Assembly (NCBI GenBank): GCA_021323375.2
Contig: JAJPCT020000006.1
Location: forward strand, 1 to 38,678
Direction: 5' to 3'
DNA: 38,678 bases
Source of the DNA: Candidatus Wolframiiraptor gerlachensis
GTDB lineage: Archaea > Thermoproteota > Nitrososphaeria_A > Caldarchaeales > Wolframiiraptoraceae
The translations under genes were made by a program, and so were the position numbers. The first letter of the stretch is position 1. Each line of letters opens with the position of its first letter. Shown piece by piece: positions 1 to 29,434 of this stretch. The notes beneath the pieces were generated by a model. That model had not been told where the DNA came from, made no database searches, and saw only the letters and a list, made by a program, of their open reading frames with translations.

Positions 1-2
1 AA

Positions 3-104
3 ATCCTGATAAAAATTAGGGGTAGGGCTACAGAGAAAGATGTTGTATACCTAATATTCACTTTTCAAGCAATAATAGGCTTATTAGGATTATGGGTTTT
101 GTGA
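3..104 (+). CDS. possible C-terminal end of a membrane protein (partial)
   Basis: An open frame enters from the left edge and stops with TGA at 102-104. Its 33 residues end in a hydrophobic run (YLIFTFQAIIGLLGLWVL) that could be a last transmembrane segment. There is no family signature, and the stretch is short and AT-rich, so this may be chance. The following bases to about 165 hold no feature I can support. Confidence 0.22.
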   Translation: MLIKIRGRATEKDVVYLIFTFQAIIGLLGLWVL

Positions 105-165
105 GAAAAAACTTATTTTTTAACAAATCCACTATAGTCGATCCTCGGCAGGTTAAAAAAGTTAC

Positions 166-209
166 GATTCTTTAAAAATTAAGAATCTTAAAATTTTAAT
201 ATTCTTAAG
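166..209. promoter_or_regulatory. AT-rich interleaved inverted repeats and probable promoter of the 230 gene
   Basis: GATTCTT at 166-172 is mirrored by AAGAATC at 181-187 with an 8-base spacer, and AAGAAT at 181-186 is mirrored again by ATTCTT at 201-206 around a central TTAAAATTTTAA. The middle arm can therefore pair with either neighbour. The AT-rich core lies about 30 bases before the ATG at 230, the usual distance for an archaeal TATA box and a leaderless start. The layout suggests an operator overlapping the promoter; the regulator is unknown, though two small ribbon-helix-helix-like proteins are encoded nearby. Confidence 0.45.
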
Positions 210-229
210 ACCCTCATAATAGCGAGAAA

Positions 230-583
230 ATGAGGCGCGGAAACTCCCCCTTAAAGCCAGCCTATGAGAATGCCACGGTGATGGAAGCTGAGAGGCTTGT
301 CGAGATAAAGGCCAAGGTTCCAGAGAGGGTCGCGAAGTTCATAGGCTATGCCTCTAGGCGGCTCCACATCCCAGAAGAGGAACTGTATGCGAGGCTTATC
401 GGGGACGCCTTAAGCGCTTTGGAGAGTTACATGAGCCATCCTGAGGGCTGGACTCGCTTTGTTGGCCTGAGCCTTGAGCCGGTCTTGTGTTATGCTCTCG
501 CGAGCCTAGCCGAGTCGTTTGTGGGAAGCTATAGTAGCCAAAACTTCAGACGCATGCTAGAGGCAGAGGAAGTGGATGCCTAA
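230..583 (+). CDS. small protein with RHH-like N-terminal region
   Basis: I do not recognise this 117-residue protein. After about 20 unstructured residues it has a short strand-helix pattern (MEAERLVEIKAKVPERVAKFI, around 18-38) that resembles a ribbon-helix-helix DNA-binding domain, followed by a helical region with LIGDALSALESYM. A second possible start is ATG 281, which would begin exactly at the RHH-like part. An AT-rich promoter with inverted repeats lies just upstream. The neighbours (zinc-finger and RHH-like proteins) are typical of archaeal viruses, plasmids and islands. Possible role: small DNA-binding regulator of the accessory block; this is inference. Confidence 0.5.
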   Translation: MRRGNSPLKPAYENATVMEAERLVEIKAKVPERVAKFIGYASRRLHIPEEELYARLIGDALSALESYMSHPEGWTRFVGLSLEPVLCYALASLAESFVGSYSSQNFRRMLEAEEVDA

Positions 584-644
584 CGTATGCGCTTCTTCCC
601 TCCTCCCTTTTTTTCTGCATACCTAAGAAGGTGATGATGCACAC

Positions 645-1031
645 ATGGCTGCCGGAGGCCCGCATACGCTAGCCTCAGAGGCTGGGGATGGGATTGCATA
701 TATGCATAAGCGGAGGAGCTTCACATGCAGGTATTGTGGAGAGAGCTTTGGTAGCATGGCCAGCCTCGCGGCGCATATCTCCTGGCGCCACAGCCAGAAG
801 CGCCAGAAAAGCCGTGAAGAGCGGATCATAGAGCTGTTGGAGGAGCTTTTGGCAGAGGTCAAGGCTCTCAGGCAGGATCTCAAAAGCCTGAAGCTTGTCG
901 AGTATACGAGGAGGACCGAGGAAAAAGTCAGGGAGATCAGGCAAGAGAGGCCTCCTGATAAAAAGCTCCCAAGCTTTCTTATAGGCAATCCATGGCTTGA
1001 CATCTTATCAAGGAGGGCTGAATCAGACTAG
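645..1031 (+). CDS. C2H2 zinc-finger protein with coiled-coil tail
   Basis: The 128-residue product has one classical zinc finger: C28-x2-C31-x12-H44-x4-H49, with the hydrophobic spacing of a eukaryote-like C2H2 finger (FTCRYCGESF...LAAHISWRH). Residues about 52-105 are strongly charged and helical (IIELLEELLAEVKALRQDLKSL), most likely a coiled coil that dimerises it. Single-finger C2H2 proteins of this size are frequent in crenarchaeal viruses and conjugative plasmids, where they act as DNA-binding regulators. The start at 645 could also be the ATG at 702, just before the finger. It is followed by the palindrome-rich region and a convergent gene. Confidence 0.68.
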   Translation: MAAGGPHTLASEAGDGIAYMHKRRSFTCRYCGESFGSMASLAAHISWRHSQKRQKSREERIIELLEELLAEVKALRQDLKSLKLVEYTRRTEEKVREIRQERPPDKKLPSFLIGNPWLDILSRRAESD

Positions 1032-1269
1032 ATAATGAACAAGTAGGCGCCTCGATGAACAAAGATGTTCATCCGTTAGCGTCCGCGGACGCTAACGATT
1101 TAAAAAGGAAAGGTATTTTCGCCTTCTCTCCCTAGTTCTAATTCCTCTTTTAATGTGGTTGAAGAGCAATTCAACCGCATCCTTAAATATCTTGGAGATA
1201 TTTACCGGCAAATACCTCGCCCATCAGATATATATCTGGTGTATGTAGCTAAAGGGAGGGGCGCTCTTT
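1032..1269. repeat. palindrome-rich intergenic region between convergent genes
   Basis: This 238-base stretch separates two convergent genes and contains no reading frame I trust. It holds five inverted repeats with exact arms and unrelated sequences: 1054-1073 (GATGAAC, 6-base spacer, GTTCATC), 1074-1097 (24-base perfect palindrome), 1157-1176 (GGTTGAA, 6-base spacer, TTCAACC), 1184-1204 (TAAATATC, 5-base spacer, GATATTTA) and 1225-1238 (CAGATATATATCTG). All are 14-24 bases long. A TATA-like TTTAAAAA follows the second one. Possible roles: replication origin or nick-site region of an integrated element, operators, or hairpins in transcript 3' ends. Confidence 0.7.
1074..1097. repeat. perfect 24-bp palindrome
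   Basis: The half-site CGTTAGCGTCCG is followed at once by its exact reverse complement, with no spacer. It directly abuts the 20-base inverted repeat at 1054-1073, so the two form a continuous 44-base symmetric block about 25 bases after the stop of the zinc-finger gene. It is far more GC-rich than its surroundings. It could be a dimeric protein's binding site, a cruciform or a transcript hairpin. Confidence 0.8.
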
Positions 1270-1653
1270 CTATATAGTTTGGAGCTTCTCGGTCTTCCGC
1301 CACGTGAGGTTTTCTGTTAGCGGCAGCATGCAGGCCGGACACCCGGGGTATCGTATTTCTAGGCCGAGTTTGGGGACCGGCAGGTGGATGTTGAGGATCT
1401 CGGTCCTAAACCTGTTTCCTTGGAATCTGTAGCCGCAGTGTGGGCAGACTTCAGGCTCGAGTATCAGATCCCCTTTCCCTCTTTTCTCGGCCTGCTCCCC
1501 CTCTATGATAACCCCCCCCTTTTTCTCATTAAGCTCCTTCTCAGCCAGCTCTCTCAGGAGCCTGTTGAAACTCCTCGCGCCCCTCCGGTCTCTAAGCTCT
1601 CTTAGGAGGTCATAGGTCTCGGGCGAGACCCTAATCGTGACCACCATCCCCAT
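1270..1653 (-). CDS. RHH domain fused to a zinc ribbon
   Basis: The 127-residue protein starts with a ribbon-helix-helix-like segment (VTIRVSPETYDLLRELRDRRG, about 5-25, then a second helix to about 40), as in VapB-type antitoxins and archaeal RHH repressors. Its C-terminal half carries CPHCGYRF and CPACMLPL (about residues 70-110), two CxxC pairs forming a probable zinc ribbon. It overlaps the end of the upstream gene at 1631-1653 by 23 bases, so the two are likely co-transcribed from the promoter near 1863-1872. The combination suggests a DNA-binding regulator; the target is unknown. No toxin gene is adjacent, so antitoxin function is not supported. Confidence 0.6.
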   Translation of the reverse strand: MGMVVTIRVSPETYDLLRELRDRRGARSFNRLLRELAEKELNEKKGGVIIEGEQAEKRGKGDLILEPEVCPHCGYRFQGNRFRTEILNIHLPVPKLGLEIRYPGCPACMLPLTENLTWRKTEKLQTI

Positions 1654-1840
1654 TCACCTCTAATCTCACCTGACCATACTCGGCCTCAATCACCTTCGGG
1701 GCCGGGATTATCTCGACCCCGTTTTCAGGCCTCTCCCCTAGGAGCCTGAGGATGGCTTCTGAGAAGTCGTCTAGGCTGTTCCTATCCATCCACGCGCAGA
1801 GCTTGATCAAGGCCTTCTCAGAGATCCGGATAAGCGGCAT
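1631..1840 (-). CDS. small RHH-like protein
   Basis: The 69-residue product begins MPLIRISEKALIKLCAWMDRN, a strand followed by two amphipathic helices (DDFSEAILRLLGE), which is the outline of a ribbon-helix-helix or CopG-like dimer. The remainder is rich in acidic and aliphatic residues. The ATG at 1840 lies about 20 bases after the TTAAAGCCAAG box (1860-1870 on this strand), so the message is probably leaderless. It is the first gene of a two-gene operon with the RHH/zinc-ribbon gene. The family assignment is by pattern only. Confidence 0.5.
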   Translation of the reverse strand: MPLIRISEKALIKLCAWMDRNSLDDFSEAILRLLGERPENGVEIIPAPKVIEAEYGQVRLEVNGDGGHD

Positions 1841-1848
1841 CGTTAGAA

Positions 1849-1896
1849 ATGCATACGTGCTTGGCTTTAAGATGCATGCGTGTATCCCCTTTAAAG
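1849..1896. promoter_or_regulatory. divergent promoter with repeated ATGCATRCGTG sites
   Basis: This spacer separates the divergent genes starting at 1840 (minus) and 1923 (plus). A TATA-like TTAAAGCC box faces each gene: 1863-1870 on the minus strand and 1889-1896 on the plus strand, each at a leaderless-type distance from its ATG. Between and beside them are two near-identical 11-mers, ATGCATACGTG at 1849-1859 and ATGCATGCGTG at 1872-1882, set 23 bases apart, that is about two helical turns. They are good candidates for binding sites of one of the RHH proteins encoded here. Confidence 0.55.
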
Positions 1897-1922
1897 CCTA
1901 GCTCTCCAAGGTTATTTTACTG

Positions 1923-2120
1923 ATGCTGGTGAGGGTTCTCGCGAGAATCCCAGAGGCTTTTAGGGGCCAGAATGTGACGCGCGCTAAGCTCGCCTTCTGG
2001 GATTCAAGCATCTCCGCCTTCGCGCGATCCATTAAGCATCTTGATGGCGAGGAGGTTGAGCTGGAGTTCGAGATATCGGATATGAAGATTGAGCTCGCTC
2101 ACTGTTGGGATGAGGTCTGA
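1923..2120 (+). CDS. hypothetical small protein
   Basis: I do not recognise this 65-residue protein. It is predicted mostly beta with acidic stretches (GEEVELEFEISDMKIELAH) and has no cysteine motif or membrane segment. Support for it being a gene comes from the TTTAAAGCC promoter box about 30 bases before the ATG, shared with two other genes of the block, and from an overlapping downstream reading frame at 2110. It may be a small partner of the regulators around it. Confidence 0.42.
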   Translation: MLVRVLARIPEAFRGQNVTRAKLAFWDSSISAFARSIKHLDGEEVELEFEISDMKIELAHCWDEV

Positions 2121-2211
2121 CATCTTTCTCGCTGTTGATGAGAAGGGGGAGGGTTATGCGATCAGGAAATGGATGGCGGCAACCCCGATAAAAGCGGAGA
2201 CGCTCAGGTGA
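2110..2211 (+). CDS. possible 33-residue ORF overlapping the 1923 gene
   Basis: The ATG at 2110 lies inside the last codons of the upstream gene (11-base overlap), a typical archaeal translational coupling. It encodes 33 residues beginning MRSDIFLAVDEKGEGYAIRK, with no family signature. It could instead be the frameshifted tail of the upstream gene, because the two together would make a protein of about 98 residues. Confidence 0.25.
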   Translation: MRSDIFLAVDEKGEGYAIRKWMAATPIKAETLR

Positions 2212-2239
2212 TGAGCCTTCGCCTTGCTGAGCCTGAGGG

Positions 2240-3508
2240 CTATGATGAGCCTCCTTCTAGCTGATCTAGCTCCTCCTCAAGCTTTCTGATATGCCTCTTC
2301 ATCACCAGGTAGGTTATTAGGGCGAAGATTAAGGCCGTGGCCGCCATTATCCACGTCCACATCTTGAACCAATTAGCATTACGCTGATACATCGCGAGGT
2401 AGTCGAGGCATACGCTATAATTCGCGTTCAAGCTATTATATTCATTGACCAGTCTCCTTATCGTTTGGTTGCATTTCTCGCCCAGCTCCAAGCCCAGAGA
2501 CACGCAATAGGACAAGTTCGCCCTCAGCATCTCATTCTCCTCTTGGAGGCGGCTTATGATTATGTCCGCTGTCTGGAGCTGGCCCCATAGGTCCGCGGCC
2601 TGCTCCTCTAGGGCCGCGCTCATGACCCGGAGATCCTCGTTCTCCTGCCTGAGCCTCCGGTTCTCGTCATTAAGGTATGTGATGACATCGCTCGCATTTC
2701 TTAGATGATCCCAGAGCTTATCCATTTCAGCCTCGACCGACTTGACCCGATGTCGAAGCTCCTCATTCTCCCTCCTGAGCTGCCGTAGCTCGGCATCATA
2801 TGGAATGACCATCTTATATTCTAGGCCATCGGGTAGGGCTATTATCTCGAAGACCTCGCGGAAACTGTGGTTAAAGAATATCTCATGGATGGCGTAGAGG
2901 TCGAGGGTCGATGGATACGTTTTCTCGTTCTCCGCGGCGCCGCGCATAAGCTCAAACTTCCCATCGCCAGTGCGATCTTGGAATGCGTGTCCAAGGCCTA
3001 ATGCATGTCCAAGCTCGTGGAAGATCACTCCCCAAACCCACTCCGCTGATCCCCTATCGAATAGATTGCAGGCCACGTAGATTTGGGACTGGTAGGGGGT
3101 CCAAGCGCCCGTGAAGTTCGTATATGCTATGACCCCTTCCTGCCTGATGACCCTGAAAGTTATATCGGCCTCGCTATGATCGGAGACGTTTACAAACCAT
3201 ATTTCTAGGAGCCTGTGGAATTCCGGATGCTCATCGACAAACCGGAAGACCACTTTGCGGAACGACCTTAAAACATCGTAGAACATTGATGCAAACTCCT
3301 TTTGATATTGGCAGGTGAACTCTTCTCCATGATCCGCGTCTAGGGCGGTTGGATAAACATAGACCTTCAAGGGGAGTGCATTTGACGGCGGGGGAGTGAT
3401 ATATATTCGTGGTGATGTCGCGGAGGCGTGGACATAGCTAAAACTAGAAAAGAGCGCTAAAGCTAGCATTAACGTCAGAGTGAGAAGCTTTGAAACCGCG
3501 CTGCTCAA
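2240..3508 (-). CDS. membrane-anchored metzincin-type zinc protease with coiled-coil stalk
   Basis: The 422-residue protein has an N-terminal signal peptide (LLTLTLMLALALFSSFSYVHA), then a protease domain with the metzincin zinc motif H164-E165-x2-H168-x2-G171-x2-H174 (FHELGHALGLGH) and a possible Met-turn at FELMRG near 188. Residues about 240-340 form a long coiled coil made of two related blocks of roughly 45 residues. A single transmembrane helix follows (about 380-402) and a short charged cytoplasmic tail. The catalytic domain would thus stand outside the cell on a stalk. Its start overlaps the stop of the preceding surface-protein gene by four bases (ATGA), so the two are one operon. 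It is not an archaemetzincin, which has extra cysteines. Matrixin-like is the closest description; the substrate is unknown. Confidence 0.75.
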   Translation of the reverse strand: MSSAVSKLLTLTLMLALALFSSFSYVHASATSPRIYITPPPSNALPLKVYVYPTALDADHGEEFTCQYQKEFASMFYDVLRSFRKVVFRFVDEHPEFHRLLEIWFVNVSDHSEADITFRVIRQEGVIAYTNFTGAWTPYQSQIYVACNLFDRGSAEWVWGVIFHELGHALGLGHAFQDRTGDGKFELMRGAAENEKTYPSTLDLYAIHEIFFNHSFREVFEIIALPDGLEYKMVIPYDAELRQLRRENEELRHRVKSVEAEMDKLWDHLRNASDVITYLNDENRRLRQENEDLRVMSAALEEQAADLWGQLQTADIIISRLQEENEMLRANLSYCVSLGLELGEKCNQTIRRLVNEYNSLNANYSVCLDYLAMYQRNANWFKMWTWIMAATALIFALITYLVMKRHIRKLEEELDQLEGGSS

Positions 3509-4950
3509 GGTCGTTCACCGGCTATGAAGACGAACTGGCTATATGGATAGTATATGATTACTGGTGACATCAGGAGGTATCGTCCTGCATAATAGCCTCC
3601 CCCATAGCCTCCTCCGCCTCCTCCACCATATTTTTCGACATACTTTGTTACCGTCACAGTTCTAGTGACGGTCGTCACAACAGGATAAGGCTCAGGAACC
3701 TTGACTGTCTCTTTTATGGTCGTCTTGACTGTCGTGGTCGTTACCTCCCATCTGGTTTCGACCTTTGTTAGGGTTTGGGTTTTGTATCTCGTGGTTGTCT
3801 GGGTTATTGTCTGGGTTGTCGGCTGGGTTACGATGGACGTGACGGTCTGGGTTTTGGTGTAGGTTGTCCCGGGCTCCGTGACCGCGTATGTGGTGGTGTA
3901 GGTTATGGTTTGGCCGGGCAGGATTATCAGCTCCGTCTCCGTGACCTTGGTGGTGTATGGGACGGTCACCGTGATCGTCCTTGTCTCCACGACCGGCGTC
4001 ATGCCCTCCATGCCGGACTCAGATGCCACCATGACCTCTGCTAGCGGCGCCACCGTGACATCTTTCTCGACTATCATCTCGAAGTCGCCGGTCTCCTTGA
4101 ACTCGAAGCTGAAGCAGCCGAGCTTTGCGTCCTTAAGCTCCCTTACCACGGGCTCCTCGTCCCCCTCGAACTTGACCACGCCTTGGTAGTCGGCGTAGAA
4201 GCATATCTCCCGCTCCTTTGTCTTCGGAGGCTCATTCGGGATCTGTAATCCCCCAGTGGGCCTCTCTCCGGCGAGGATCTTCCTCGCAAGTTCTTTCTCC
4301 CCGAGGGCCATTAAGTGGAAGACCTTCCCGGGGACTGACAGCTTCTCGAACTCCATCTTCTCCGGCGGGACGCCTTTCCCGGCCCTCTCAAGGGCCTTCT
4401 CGTGGATCACCTCGCCGTCAACGCTCACCTTGACCTTCACGTTGAAGCTGTATTCCTCCGGGATGCCTTGGTATGTCTTGACCCTGAGGATCGGCCTTAC
4501 CCATACTTCTCCCTCGAGGCCCCTCTGATGGTCGTAGAGCTTGAGGGCCCTGTAGTCCCCGAGCTTGGGCTTCACGTAGATGCCGGACATACCTATGAAG
4601 CCGGCCTGAACCCCCGAGAACTTCTGCGTGAAGATGAATGATTCGCCGCTCGTGGAGGTGTAGCCGATCTCGGCCTCGAGTCCGACCGATTCAACCTCAC
4701 CGGAGAGGGCCTTGCCGAGGTTGCTGAAGGCCTTGACTACTGGTGCTAGGGGACCCCAGTCCCTCTCGATCACCAGCTCCTCGGCGGGCTTGATGCCCGG
4801 GACGCTTATCCGCGGCTGCGGCCTCGTCACCGTTATGATCGGCTGGATGGCCATGGTCAGCCCGATCATCAATAGCAGGATTATGCCTAGCGCGAGGATG
4901 AGCCTGTGGCCCTCACGCCGCCTAACCCCGTAACCAGCCTTTCCCTTCAT
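3505..4950 (-). CDS. membrane-anchored surface protein with Thr-rich stalk and Gly-rich tip
   Basis: About 481 residues. A basic N-terminus is followed by one hydrophobic helix (LILALGIILLLMIGLTMAI), then a beta-rich domain to about residue 300. Residues about 310-440 are a low-complexity Thr/Val stalk (runs such as TITVTVPYTTKVTETE and TQTITQTTTRYKTQ), probably heavily O-glycosylated, ending in GGGGGGGYGGGYY and a hydrophobic tail. This layout is that of an S-layer-like, pilus-like or virion surface protein; I see no named family. ATG 4950 is preferred over ATG 4965 because the promoter box at 4971-4981 then sits 20 bases before it, as in the 1840 gene. It heads the operon with the protease. 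Confidence 0.6.
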   Translation of the reverse strand: MKGKAGYGVRRREGHRLILALGIILLLMIGLTMAIQPIITVTRPQPRISVPGIKPAEELVIERDWGPLAPVVKAFSNLGKALSGEVESVGLEAEIGYTSTSGESFIFTQKFSGVQAGFIGMSGIYVKPKLGDYRALKLYDHQRGLEGEVWVRPILRVKTYQGIPEEYSFNVKVKVSVDGEVIHEKALERAGKGVPPEKMEFEKLSVPGKVFHLMALGEKELARKILAGERPTGGLQIPNEPPKTKEREICFYADYQGVVKFEGDEEPVVRELKDAKLGCFSFEFKETGDFEMIVEKDVTVAPLAEVMVASESGMEGMTPVVETRTITVTVPYTTKVTETELIILPGQTITYTTTYAVTEPGTTYTKTQTVTSIVTQPTTQTITQTTTRYKTQTLTKVETRWEVTTTTVKTTIKETVKVPEPYPVVTTVTRTVTVTKYVEKYGGGGGGGYGGGYYAGRYLLMSPVIIYYPYSQFVFIAGERP

Positions 4951-4970
4951 CAATAAACACGGCATAGCTA

Positions 4971-4985
4971 CTTGGCTTTAAAACC
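4971..4985 (-). promoter_or_regulatory. promoter of the surface-protein/protease operon
   Basis: Read on the minus strand this is GGTTTTAAAGCCAAG, a BRE/TATA-like box. The 11-mer TTAAAGCCAAG is identical to the one at 1860-1870 that precedes the 1840 gene, with nearly the same distance to the ATG (20 versus 19 bases). The rest of the spacer up to the thiolase gene at 5181 shows nothing I can name. Confidence 0.55.
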
Positions 4986-5180
4986 GATTCTCTTCGCCAC
5001 GATCGCGGATGCCTCACTCCTCGTAATGTTGTTGTCGGCTATTTGCATGAAAAATAAACTTTGGCAAAAATGAAGATCTATAACGCAATGGACTTCTAGC
5101 CAGTTTCTTCCCCCCTACTCCTCGGCGCATGTTTCCCTCAATTCATCAATTCCACGCGTGTCCTTTTTTTATCTCTACAT

Positions 5181-6359
5181 CTACCAGGGCTTCTCCAAGG
5201 ATAGTATTGTGATGTAGGCGAAGTGTCCTGTCCCTCCAACATTATGTACTAGGGCTTGGCCATGTTTTATTGTTGCTTGCCTTCCTCGGTCTACTTCTTG
5301 TCGAAGCTGCTTAACGGCCTCATAGATCATTGCTAGGCCTGAGGCGGCTATTGGGTGTCCCTTTGCCTTAAGCCCTCCATCGGTGTTGACTGGGATTAGG
5401 CCTCCTATGTATGTCTGCTCCTCCCTCGCGAGCAGGTATCCCTCTCCCCTTTTAGCGAACCCGAGATCCTCGTAGGCGATTATCTCCGCTATCGTGAAGC
5501 AGTCGTGGATGAGGGCGAGGTCGAGGGACTTCACGGGATCCTCTATCCCGGCCTTCCTGTATGCCTGCTTAGCCGCTTCAACCACGCTCTCTATCGAGAG
5601 GAGGTCTCTTCTCATTGTGAGGTTTGCCGGCGCTGTCGCTATCCCCTGAGACTTCACCCAGACTGGCGTATCCGTGAGCCTTGAGGCGATCTTCTCCGAT
5701 GCCACGATGGCCGCGGCGGCGCCATCCGTTATTGGCGAGCAGTCATAGAGCTTGAGAGGCCAGGCCACATACCTAGAATTTAGGACATCCTCGATTGTTA
5801 TCCTCTTCTGGAATTGAGCCTTCGGGTTCATCGAGCCATAATAATGGTTCTTAACCGCGATCTTCGCGAGATCCTCCTCGGTCGCGCCATACTCATCCAT
5901 GTAGGCCCTGGCGAAGAGGGCATAGTATGCGGGGAATGTAAGACCGAGCGTCTCGAATTCCCAGAAGAAGTTTCCTCCCCTGCCAAGGAGCTCTACTATG
6001 GCGGGTGTTGATGCCAGCTCATTCATCCTCTCAGCCCCAACCGCGAGGGCTATATCCGCGTAGCCGGATTCAACGGCCATGCAGGCTGCTGCGAGCGCTG
6101 CGCTCCCGGATGCACAGGCCGCCTCAACCCTCATCCCTCCCCTTGGATTAAGCCCAGCATACTCGCATACTATCGGGAGTGGGAAGAACTCGCCGCTCCA
6201 CCCGCCGACGTTGCCGAAGGCGATGAATCCTATATCCTCTCTGGATACGCCAGCATCTCTCAAAGCCTCATCAACGGCCTTGAAGGCCAGCTCTGGGAGC
6301 TGGTGCTCCAGATCCCTCCCAAACCGCGTCATCCCAACGCCTATTATCGCGACGACCAT
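5181..6359 (-). CDS. thiolase-superfamily acyltransferase (SCP2-thiolase-like)
   Basis: The 392-residue protein opens with VAIIGVGMTRFGRD and has the nucleophilic-cysteine loop VEAACASGSAAL (Cys about 82), a His in HDCFTIAEI near 290, and the GHPIAASG and HNVGGTG motifs near the C-terminus: all parts of the archaeal SCP2/acetyl-CoA acetyltransferase-like branch. The canonical second Cys of biosynthetic thiolases is replaced by the GGTG loop typical of this branch. In many archaea such a protein pairs with a DUF35 OB-fold protein and HMG-CoA synthase for the mevalonate pathway; neither partner is in this window, so its substrate is open. The ATG at 6359 is preferred to the TTG just before it. 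Confidence 0.82.
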   Translation of the reverse strand: MVVAIIGVGMTRFGRDLEHQLPELAFKAVDEALRDAGVSREDIGFIAFGNVGGWSGEFFPLPIVCEYAGLNPRGGMRVEAACASGSAALAAACMAVESGYADIALAVGAERMNELASTPAIVELLGRGGNFFWEFETLGLTFPAYYALFARAYMDEYGATEEDLAKIAVKNHYYGSMNPKAQFQKRITIEDVLNSRYVAWPLKLYDCSPITDGAAAAIVASEKIASRLTDTPVWVKSQGIATAPANLTMRRDLLSIESVVEAAKQAYRKAGIEDPVKSLDLALIHDCFTIAEIIAYEDLGFAKRGEGYLLAREEQTYIGGLIPVNTDGGLKAKGHPIAASGLAMIYEAVKQLRQEVDRGRQATIKHGQALVHNVGGTGHFAYITILSLEKPW

Positions 6360-6463
6360 CAAACTTCACGCATAATGCCTTGCTTTAGACCTTCCGGATG
6401 CCTTCTCAGGACCATGTGGGGAAAGATTTTAGCCGAGGAACGGCGAGCCGAGGATAGGATGGA

Positions 6464-21829: not shown

Positions 21830-22094
21830 GTGAGTGGGCCTAGGATCTGGAGACCATATGAGAAGTTCGGAGGTTGTTTTAAAGATGCTGGGCTACTTGA
21901 TGATCTCACTAGGATGCTGAATTATACCAATGAGACGCTAGTTATTATCGAGTGTTACTGCCAAGTGGCTCGGTAATCCGTTGATAGAGAGATTGAAGGC
22001 AGAGATATACGAGCTGTTAGAGGAGGCCCTAGAGCGGCGGGGTAGACAGGAAGTCTGTGACAAAATGGAGGGTGAAGACAGTGAAGAAGTATAG
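21830..22094 (+). pseudogene. small frameshifted ORF inside the tRNA-Ala island
   Basis: A GTG at 21830, preceded by a GGGGGGAGG ribosome-binding-like run, opens a 48-residue frame (SGPRIWRPYEKFGG at its start) that stops at 21976. In the next frame the sequence continues with AKWLGNPLIERLKAEIYELL, a strongly helical segment that reads as protein-coding, to TAG at 22094. The two parts probably were one gene of about 85-90 residues broken near 21950-21970. I do not recognise the family. Its end overlaps the start of the homing endonuclease by 38 bases. Confidence 0.35.
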
Positions 22095-29315: not shown

Positions 29316-29434
29316 GCGGGGGTAGCCAAGCCTGGACAAAGGCGCCGGGCTTAAGACCTGATGAAAGCTGGTCAGATTACTGGTTGGAGACCCGGTCCCG
29401 TAGGGGTTCGCGGGTTCGAATCCCGCCCCCCGCA
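29316..29434 (+). tRNA. tRNA-Leu(TAA) with a canonical intron
   Basis: Acceptor GCGGGGG (29316-29322) pairs with CCCCCGC (29427-29433); discriminator A at 29434. The anticodon stem CCGGG and CCCGG enclose loop CTTAAG-A with anticodon TAA, interrupted after base 37 by 34 bases (29356-29389), the standard archaeal intron position with complementary ACC/GGT next to the splice points. A long variable arm (CCC-GTA-GGG) and T arm GCGGG-TTCGAAT-CCCGC follow. CCA is not encoded. Upstream is TATA-like TTAAAATAG at about 29283-29291. Confidence 0.93.

Follow-up and report, generated by a model that had tools for sequence, protein, structure and literature searches.

Five mutually unrelated inverted repeats clustered in an integrated element of Candidatus Wolframiiraptor gerlachensis

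The locus and its genes

The stretch of DNA analysed here (the window) comprises positions 1 to 38,678 of contig JAJPCT020000006.1 of Candidatus Wolframiiraptor gerlachensis. Close to its start, a C2H2 gene and an RHH-zinc gene converge on a gap of 238 bp, which holds at 1054-1238 five perfect inverted repeats with arms of at least 7 and loops of at most 8, the criterion behind all repeat counts given below (Table 1). All five elements named in the original prediction are present, but the geometry of two had to be corrected: 1054-1073 is an 8-4-8 rather than a 7-6-7 repeat, and 1184-1204 a 9-3-9 rather than an 8-5-8 repeat. As predicted, the five are mutually unrelated in sequence; the sole direct repeat is an 8-mer, ATGAACAA, at 1035 and 1055, and the locus has no iterons.

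The products of both flanking genes are putative DNA-binding proteins. The tail of the C2H2 protein (LPSFL..NPW..IL.RR) also occurs in larger chromosomal coiled-coil proteins across the order (L005, L008-L013), as if a docking motif had been taken over by the element. A search of 398 genomes of the phylum gave no full-length relative of the RHH-zinc protein; the single partial match is limited to the RHH part and has no repeats nearby. No Rep-Arvir protein or other replication endonuclease was recognised among the genes flanking the locus, and neither a relaxase nor a replication initiator in the assembled parts of the element. The GC skew changes from + to - at the locus, as expected from convergent genes alone and opposite to the usual origin.

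In genome G016, the PEPCK gene is split in two overlapping frames, and two metallopeptidase-like genes homologous to window 2240-3508 lie at its 3' end (L041:13337-17168). Weak matches to archaeal C/D box sRNA families, all below threshold, are found at window 2204-2267.

Table 1. Positions of the inverted repeats, possible helices, genes and attachment features in the window.
Feature	Position	Strand	Remarks
ORF of the element, 117 aa	230..583	+	no significant family
C2H2 gene	645..1031	+	single C2H2 finger and coiled coil; C-terminal tail common to larger chromosomal proteins
Possible closing helix, 5' arm	1046..1053	+	pairs with 1258-1265, two G.U; alone not significant
Inverted repeat 1	1054..1073	none	8-4-8: GATGAACA AAGA TGTTCATC
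Inverted repeat 2	1074..1097	none	perfect spacerless 24-bp palindrome CGTTAGCGTCCGCGGACGCTAACG; single copy in genome
Possible inner helix, 5' arm	1111..1118	+	AGGTATTT; pairs with 1210-1217; encloses repeats 3 and 4
Inverted repeat 3	1153..1180	none	perfect 7-6-7 core at 1157-1176; 11-6-11 on + strand with one U.G
Inverted repeat 4	1184..1204	none	9-3-9: TAAATATCT TGG AGATATTTA
Possible inner helix, 3' arm	1210..1217	+	AAATACCT; pairs with 1111-1118
Inverted repeat 5	1222..1241	none	perfect 14-bp palindrome at 1225-1238; 20 bp when one mismatch is allowed (U.G on + strand)
Possible closing helix, 3' arm	1258..1265	+	pairs with 1046-1053
RHH-zinc gene	1270..1653	-	RHH (PF01402) and CxxC..CxxC motif
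Small ORF, 69 aa	1631..1840	-	directly upstream of RHH-zinc gene; no family
Metallopeptidase-like protein	2240..3508	-	HExxH, coiled coil, C-terminal membrane segment; homologues beside PEPCK in G016
486-aa protein	3505..4965	-	Thr/Val-rich stretch; in the family a weak partial match only
13-mer AAGTTTATTTTTC	5049..5061	-	reads GAAAAATAAACTT on + strand; inverted copy of L040:2316 just inside other end
attR core	5074..5095	+	22 bp identical to 3' end of intact PEPCK gene on contig C7

Excess of symmetry over chance

Dinucleotide shuffles of the 238-bp gap yield on average 0.13 repeats of this kind, and none of 3000 shuffles reaches four. Across the 1.218 Mb of the genome that was scanned (95% of the 1.278-Mb assembly), 703 such repeats occur, a rate of 0.58 per kb, and four or more within 250 bp are found only here, making this the densest cluster. 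The gap carries 21 repeats per kb versus 0.81-0.90 per kb in the other intergenic gaps; for any single gap named in advance, five or more repeats at the intergenic rate have a Poisson probability of about 2e-6. Shuffles, genome scan and intergenic rates thus support the earlier claim that selection rather than chance lies behind the symmetry, and the refuting outcome that had been named for it, shuffled sequence of the same composition giving as many repeats, did not occur. Chance clustering, for which no supporting point was found and which the shuffles and the uniqueness within 1.22 Mb contradict, is practically negligible as an explanation.

Folding of the gap

Both strands of the gap fold strongly as RNA, with z near -6.5: the + strand at -86.0 kcal/mol (z -6.4), the - strand at -83.3 kcal/mol (z -6.6). 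Folded as single-stranded DNA, the gap has a z of -5.6. In a genome-wide scan of 5481 folding windows, it is among the few whose folds are most stable given their GC content, and the strongest others include the 23S rRNA and a repeated hairpin family.

Pairing beyond the hairpins was assessed by holding all five fixed and shuffling the linkers alone. At 37 C, the pairing that then remains, the possible closing and inner helices included, scores z -1.2 on either strand; at 60 C, z is -2.2 for the + strand and -1.65 for the - strand. Since the long-range helices are barely beyond chance under these conditions, what the data support is local hairpins in a row. A single global RNA fold of the gap is possible in addition to them; pairing beyond the hairpins is not significant at 37 C. 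Rfam covariance models gave no match at the locus, even at E up to 1.

Other structured sites were seen elsewhere in the genome. The repeated hairpins belong to a dispersed MITE-like family of long imperfect hairpins resembling GGCTGGCCGGCGAGT...CTGGCCTTTATGGC, with sites at window ~21959-22054, L069 ~9021, L106 ~8361, L082 ~12541, L083 ~8581 and L061 1927-2051; the window copy has a blast match to contig C21 only (77%). Of all folds in the scan, a multibranched structure on contig C17 (L091:~1700-2040) has the greatest stability relative to GC content; it has no Rfam match even at relaxed thresholds and, by eye, could be a divergent RNase P RNA. At window 29316-29434, Rfam matches a tRNA that ARAGORN does not report; as the match is 119 nt long, this tRNA probably contains an intron.

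An element integrated at the PEPCK gene

Positions 1-5095 of the window make up the right-hand part of an integrated element. The att duplication is a 22-bp identity, AGATCTATAACGCAATGGACTT, between L040:2282-2303 on contig C7 and window 5074-5095. Contig C7 carries the intact PEPCK gene, directly at its 3' end the gene of a tyrosine recombinase of 480 aa (PF00589, E 1.3e-13; also phrog_1), and then small genes up to the contig end; in the window, the PEPCK gene is reduced to its last codons at 5074-5095. A 13-mer, AAGTTTATTTTTC, lies in inverted orientation just inside each end, and its window copy is possibly an arm site of the recombinase. Together with the 22-bp identity, these inverted 13-mers fit attL and attR of one element. 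Of this element, ~5.1 kb lie in the window and ~4.0 kb on C7 (L040:2282-6343), and the middle is unassembled; direct joining of the C7 and C6 contig ends was rejected, there being no overlap between them, and the two ends of the element, one on C7 and one on C6, are not on one assembled contig.

The empty site is seen in genomes G015 and G021, in which a PEPCK-like gene (601 aa) and a thiolase gene are adjacent and convergent. The thiolase gene of the window lies at 5181-6362, and synteny with the sister genomes starts at 5049-5185. The 21 other genomes of the family lack the locus and those flanking genes that were tested; the exceptions are a weak partial match to the 486-aa protein and the metallopeptidase homologues of G016. 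The att duplication, the tyrosine recombinase at the other end and the absence of the block from close relatives support the original view of the block as an integrated plasmid or virus.

Relatives of the locus and of the element

Phage and plasmid records yielded no relative of the locus, nor did a DNA search in the family, a single-sequence RNA covariance model in the 44 genomes of the order and class, a 22-bp pattern in viral contigs (IMG/VR), the flanking genes, the recombinase and the C21 primase gene in IMG/VR, or two element proteins in GTDB contigs; a literature search for precisely these features together likewise returned nothing.

The closest relative of the element that was found lies in G007 (contig C65), with a recombinase 49% identical. 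It shares RHH, C2H2, e121- and e200-like genes and a putative Walker-type ATPase, but differs in having neither a hairpin cluster nor a structured gap and in lying between ribosomal protein genes instead of at PEPCK. G010 offers a candidate plasmid origin on its contig C12, which also encodes a related recombinase: a structured gap directly 3' of a prim-pol gene (L124:856-1090, z -6.2), rich in palindromes and with TTCACCC-like repeats. The window's own genome has two PriL-like primase genes with 37% identity between them; the second, on contig C21 (L061:3111-4905), is followed by a strongly structured gap (z -7.1) and a small membrane protein; that C21 is part of the element is not proven. 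The gap 3' of the G012 prim-pol gene is unstructured.

The structured gaps of G010 and C21 recall two known archaeal origins. That of pRN1 from Sulfolobus is a single stem-loop of ~100 bp that follows the replication gene orf904 at a distance of 54 bp; this noncoding structure 3' of the replication gene is needed for replication, and its structure is kept whereas its sequence is not (PMC4234260, PMC3869888). With the pRN1 family the present locus shares a noncoding structured region, a replicon also found integrated and an encoded RHH protein (PMC4234260, PMC3869888), but it consists of five small separate hairpins between C2H2 and RHH-zinc genes, and a large stem-loop 3' of a prim-pol/helicase replication gene is absent from it. 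The SNJ2 (Rep-Arvir) origin is bipartite and lies directly downstream of the Rep-Arvir gene, with a noncoding hairpin and a short inverted repeat whose sequence is not conserved (PMC13107129). Like SNJ2, the element is an integrated archaeal one with a noncoding region of hairpin type (PMC13107129), but it has five repeats, and no Rep was recognised in its assembled parts. As no replication gene is adjacent to the locus, membership of the pRN1 or SNJ2 origin class is not claimed.

Possible functions of the cluster

From the excess of symmetry and the integrated setting we infer, tentatively and with somewhat less than even confidence, that the five repeats form a structured replication or maintenance locus of a plasmid- or virus-like element, the best of the explanations considered. 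When the element is excised or replicates, the palindromes would form extruded cruciforms or, in single-stranded DNA, fold back on themselves, and element-encoded proteins, with the flanking RHH and C2H2 proteins as candidates, would recognise them by shape and dyad symmetry; the site may act as an origin, a strand-conversion site, a terminus or a partition site. Because it is the structure that would be read, the sequence of the locus need not be conserved. Consistent with a replication or maintenance site are the stable fold of the gap as single-stranded DNA, the putative DNA-binding proteins encoded on both sides, the lack of a spacer in two of the five dyads, a feature for which RNA hairpins have no need, and the structured gaps 3' of the G010 prim-pol and the C21 PriL-like genes; the noncoding stem-loop origins of pRN1 and SNJ2 serve as precedent. 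Against it stand the lack of a replication gene both next to the locus and in the assembled part of the element, the absence of iterons, a skew running opposite to that of the usual origin, the G007 element without the cluster, the unstructured gap of G012 and the unproven membership of C21.

The main rival is a structured RNA, either a + strand noncoding RNA of ~220 nt or a 3' end common to both convergent mRNAs, in which the hairpins would protect the transcripts or limit read-through; it is possible, though somewhat less probable than the first reading. The strong folding on both strands suits such an RNA, as does the possible closing helix, which begins 15 nt past one stop codon and stops 5 nt before the other gene. 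The G.U pairs of the + strand (in repeats 3 and 5 and in the closing helix) become C.A mismatches on the - strand. These pairs favour + strand RNA, whereas the two spacerless dyads favour double-stranded DNA, and the clues to the strand, weak in themselves, thus conflict. With the hairpins fixed, however, long-range pairing does not exceed chance at 37 C and exceeds it only weakly at 60 C, Rfam offers no match, and an upstream TATA-like box was not seen by eye. Hairpins are also not enriched in the convergent gaps of this genome (0.90 vs 0.81 per kb), which speaks against a host-wide terminator habit; bidirectional terminator hairpins as a general device of the host were therefore rejected.

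RHH proteins bind DNA as dimers, and five unrelated dyads, two of them spacerless, could each be the operator of a different dimeric regulator of the element. Such an operator cluster is improbable: the gap lies between the 3' ends of genes, where operators are unexpected, and five different specificities would be required with only one or two RHH genes nearby. The remnant of an inserted MITE or transposon end is more improbable by far; hairpin repeats of another family are common in the genome, but the locus is single copy by blast and RNA model and unlike that family.

Implications

Only for a few archaeal mobile elements, pRN1 and SNJ2 among them, are the replication sites and noncoding RNAs understood. 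The wider proposition that elements of this archaeal class carry a hitherto undescribed multi-hairpin locus of fast-evolving sequence, either a replication site or a noncoding RNA, is speculative and on balance unlikely. If it were true, such loci would be recognisable by their array of small perfect hairpins, and the C21 and G010 gaps would be further examples. Replication sites and noncoding RNAs of mobile elements can keep their shape and not their sequence, so that they escape similarity searches; perfect hairpins in a dense array are an easy mark by which to look for more, and the present element, with both att ends defined, offers a concrete test case.
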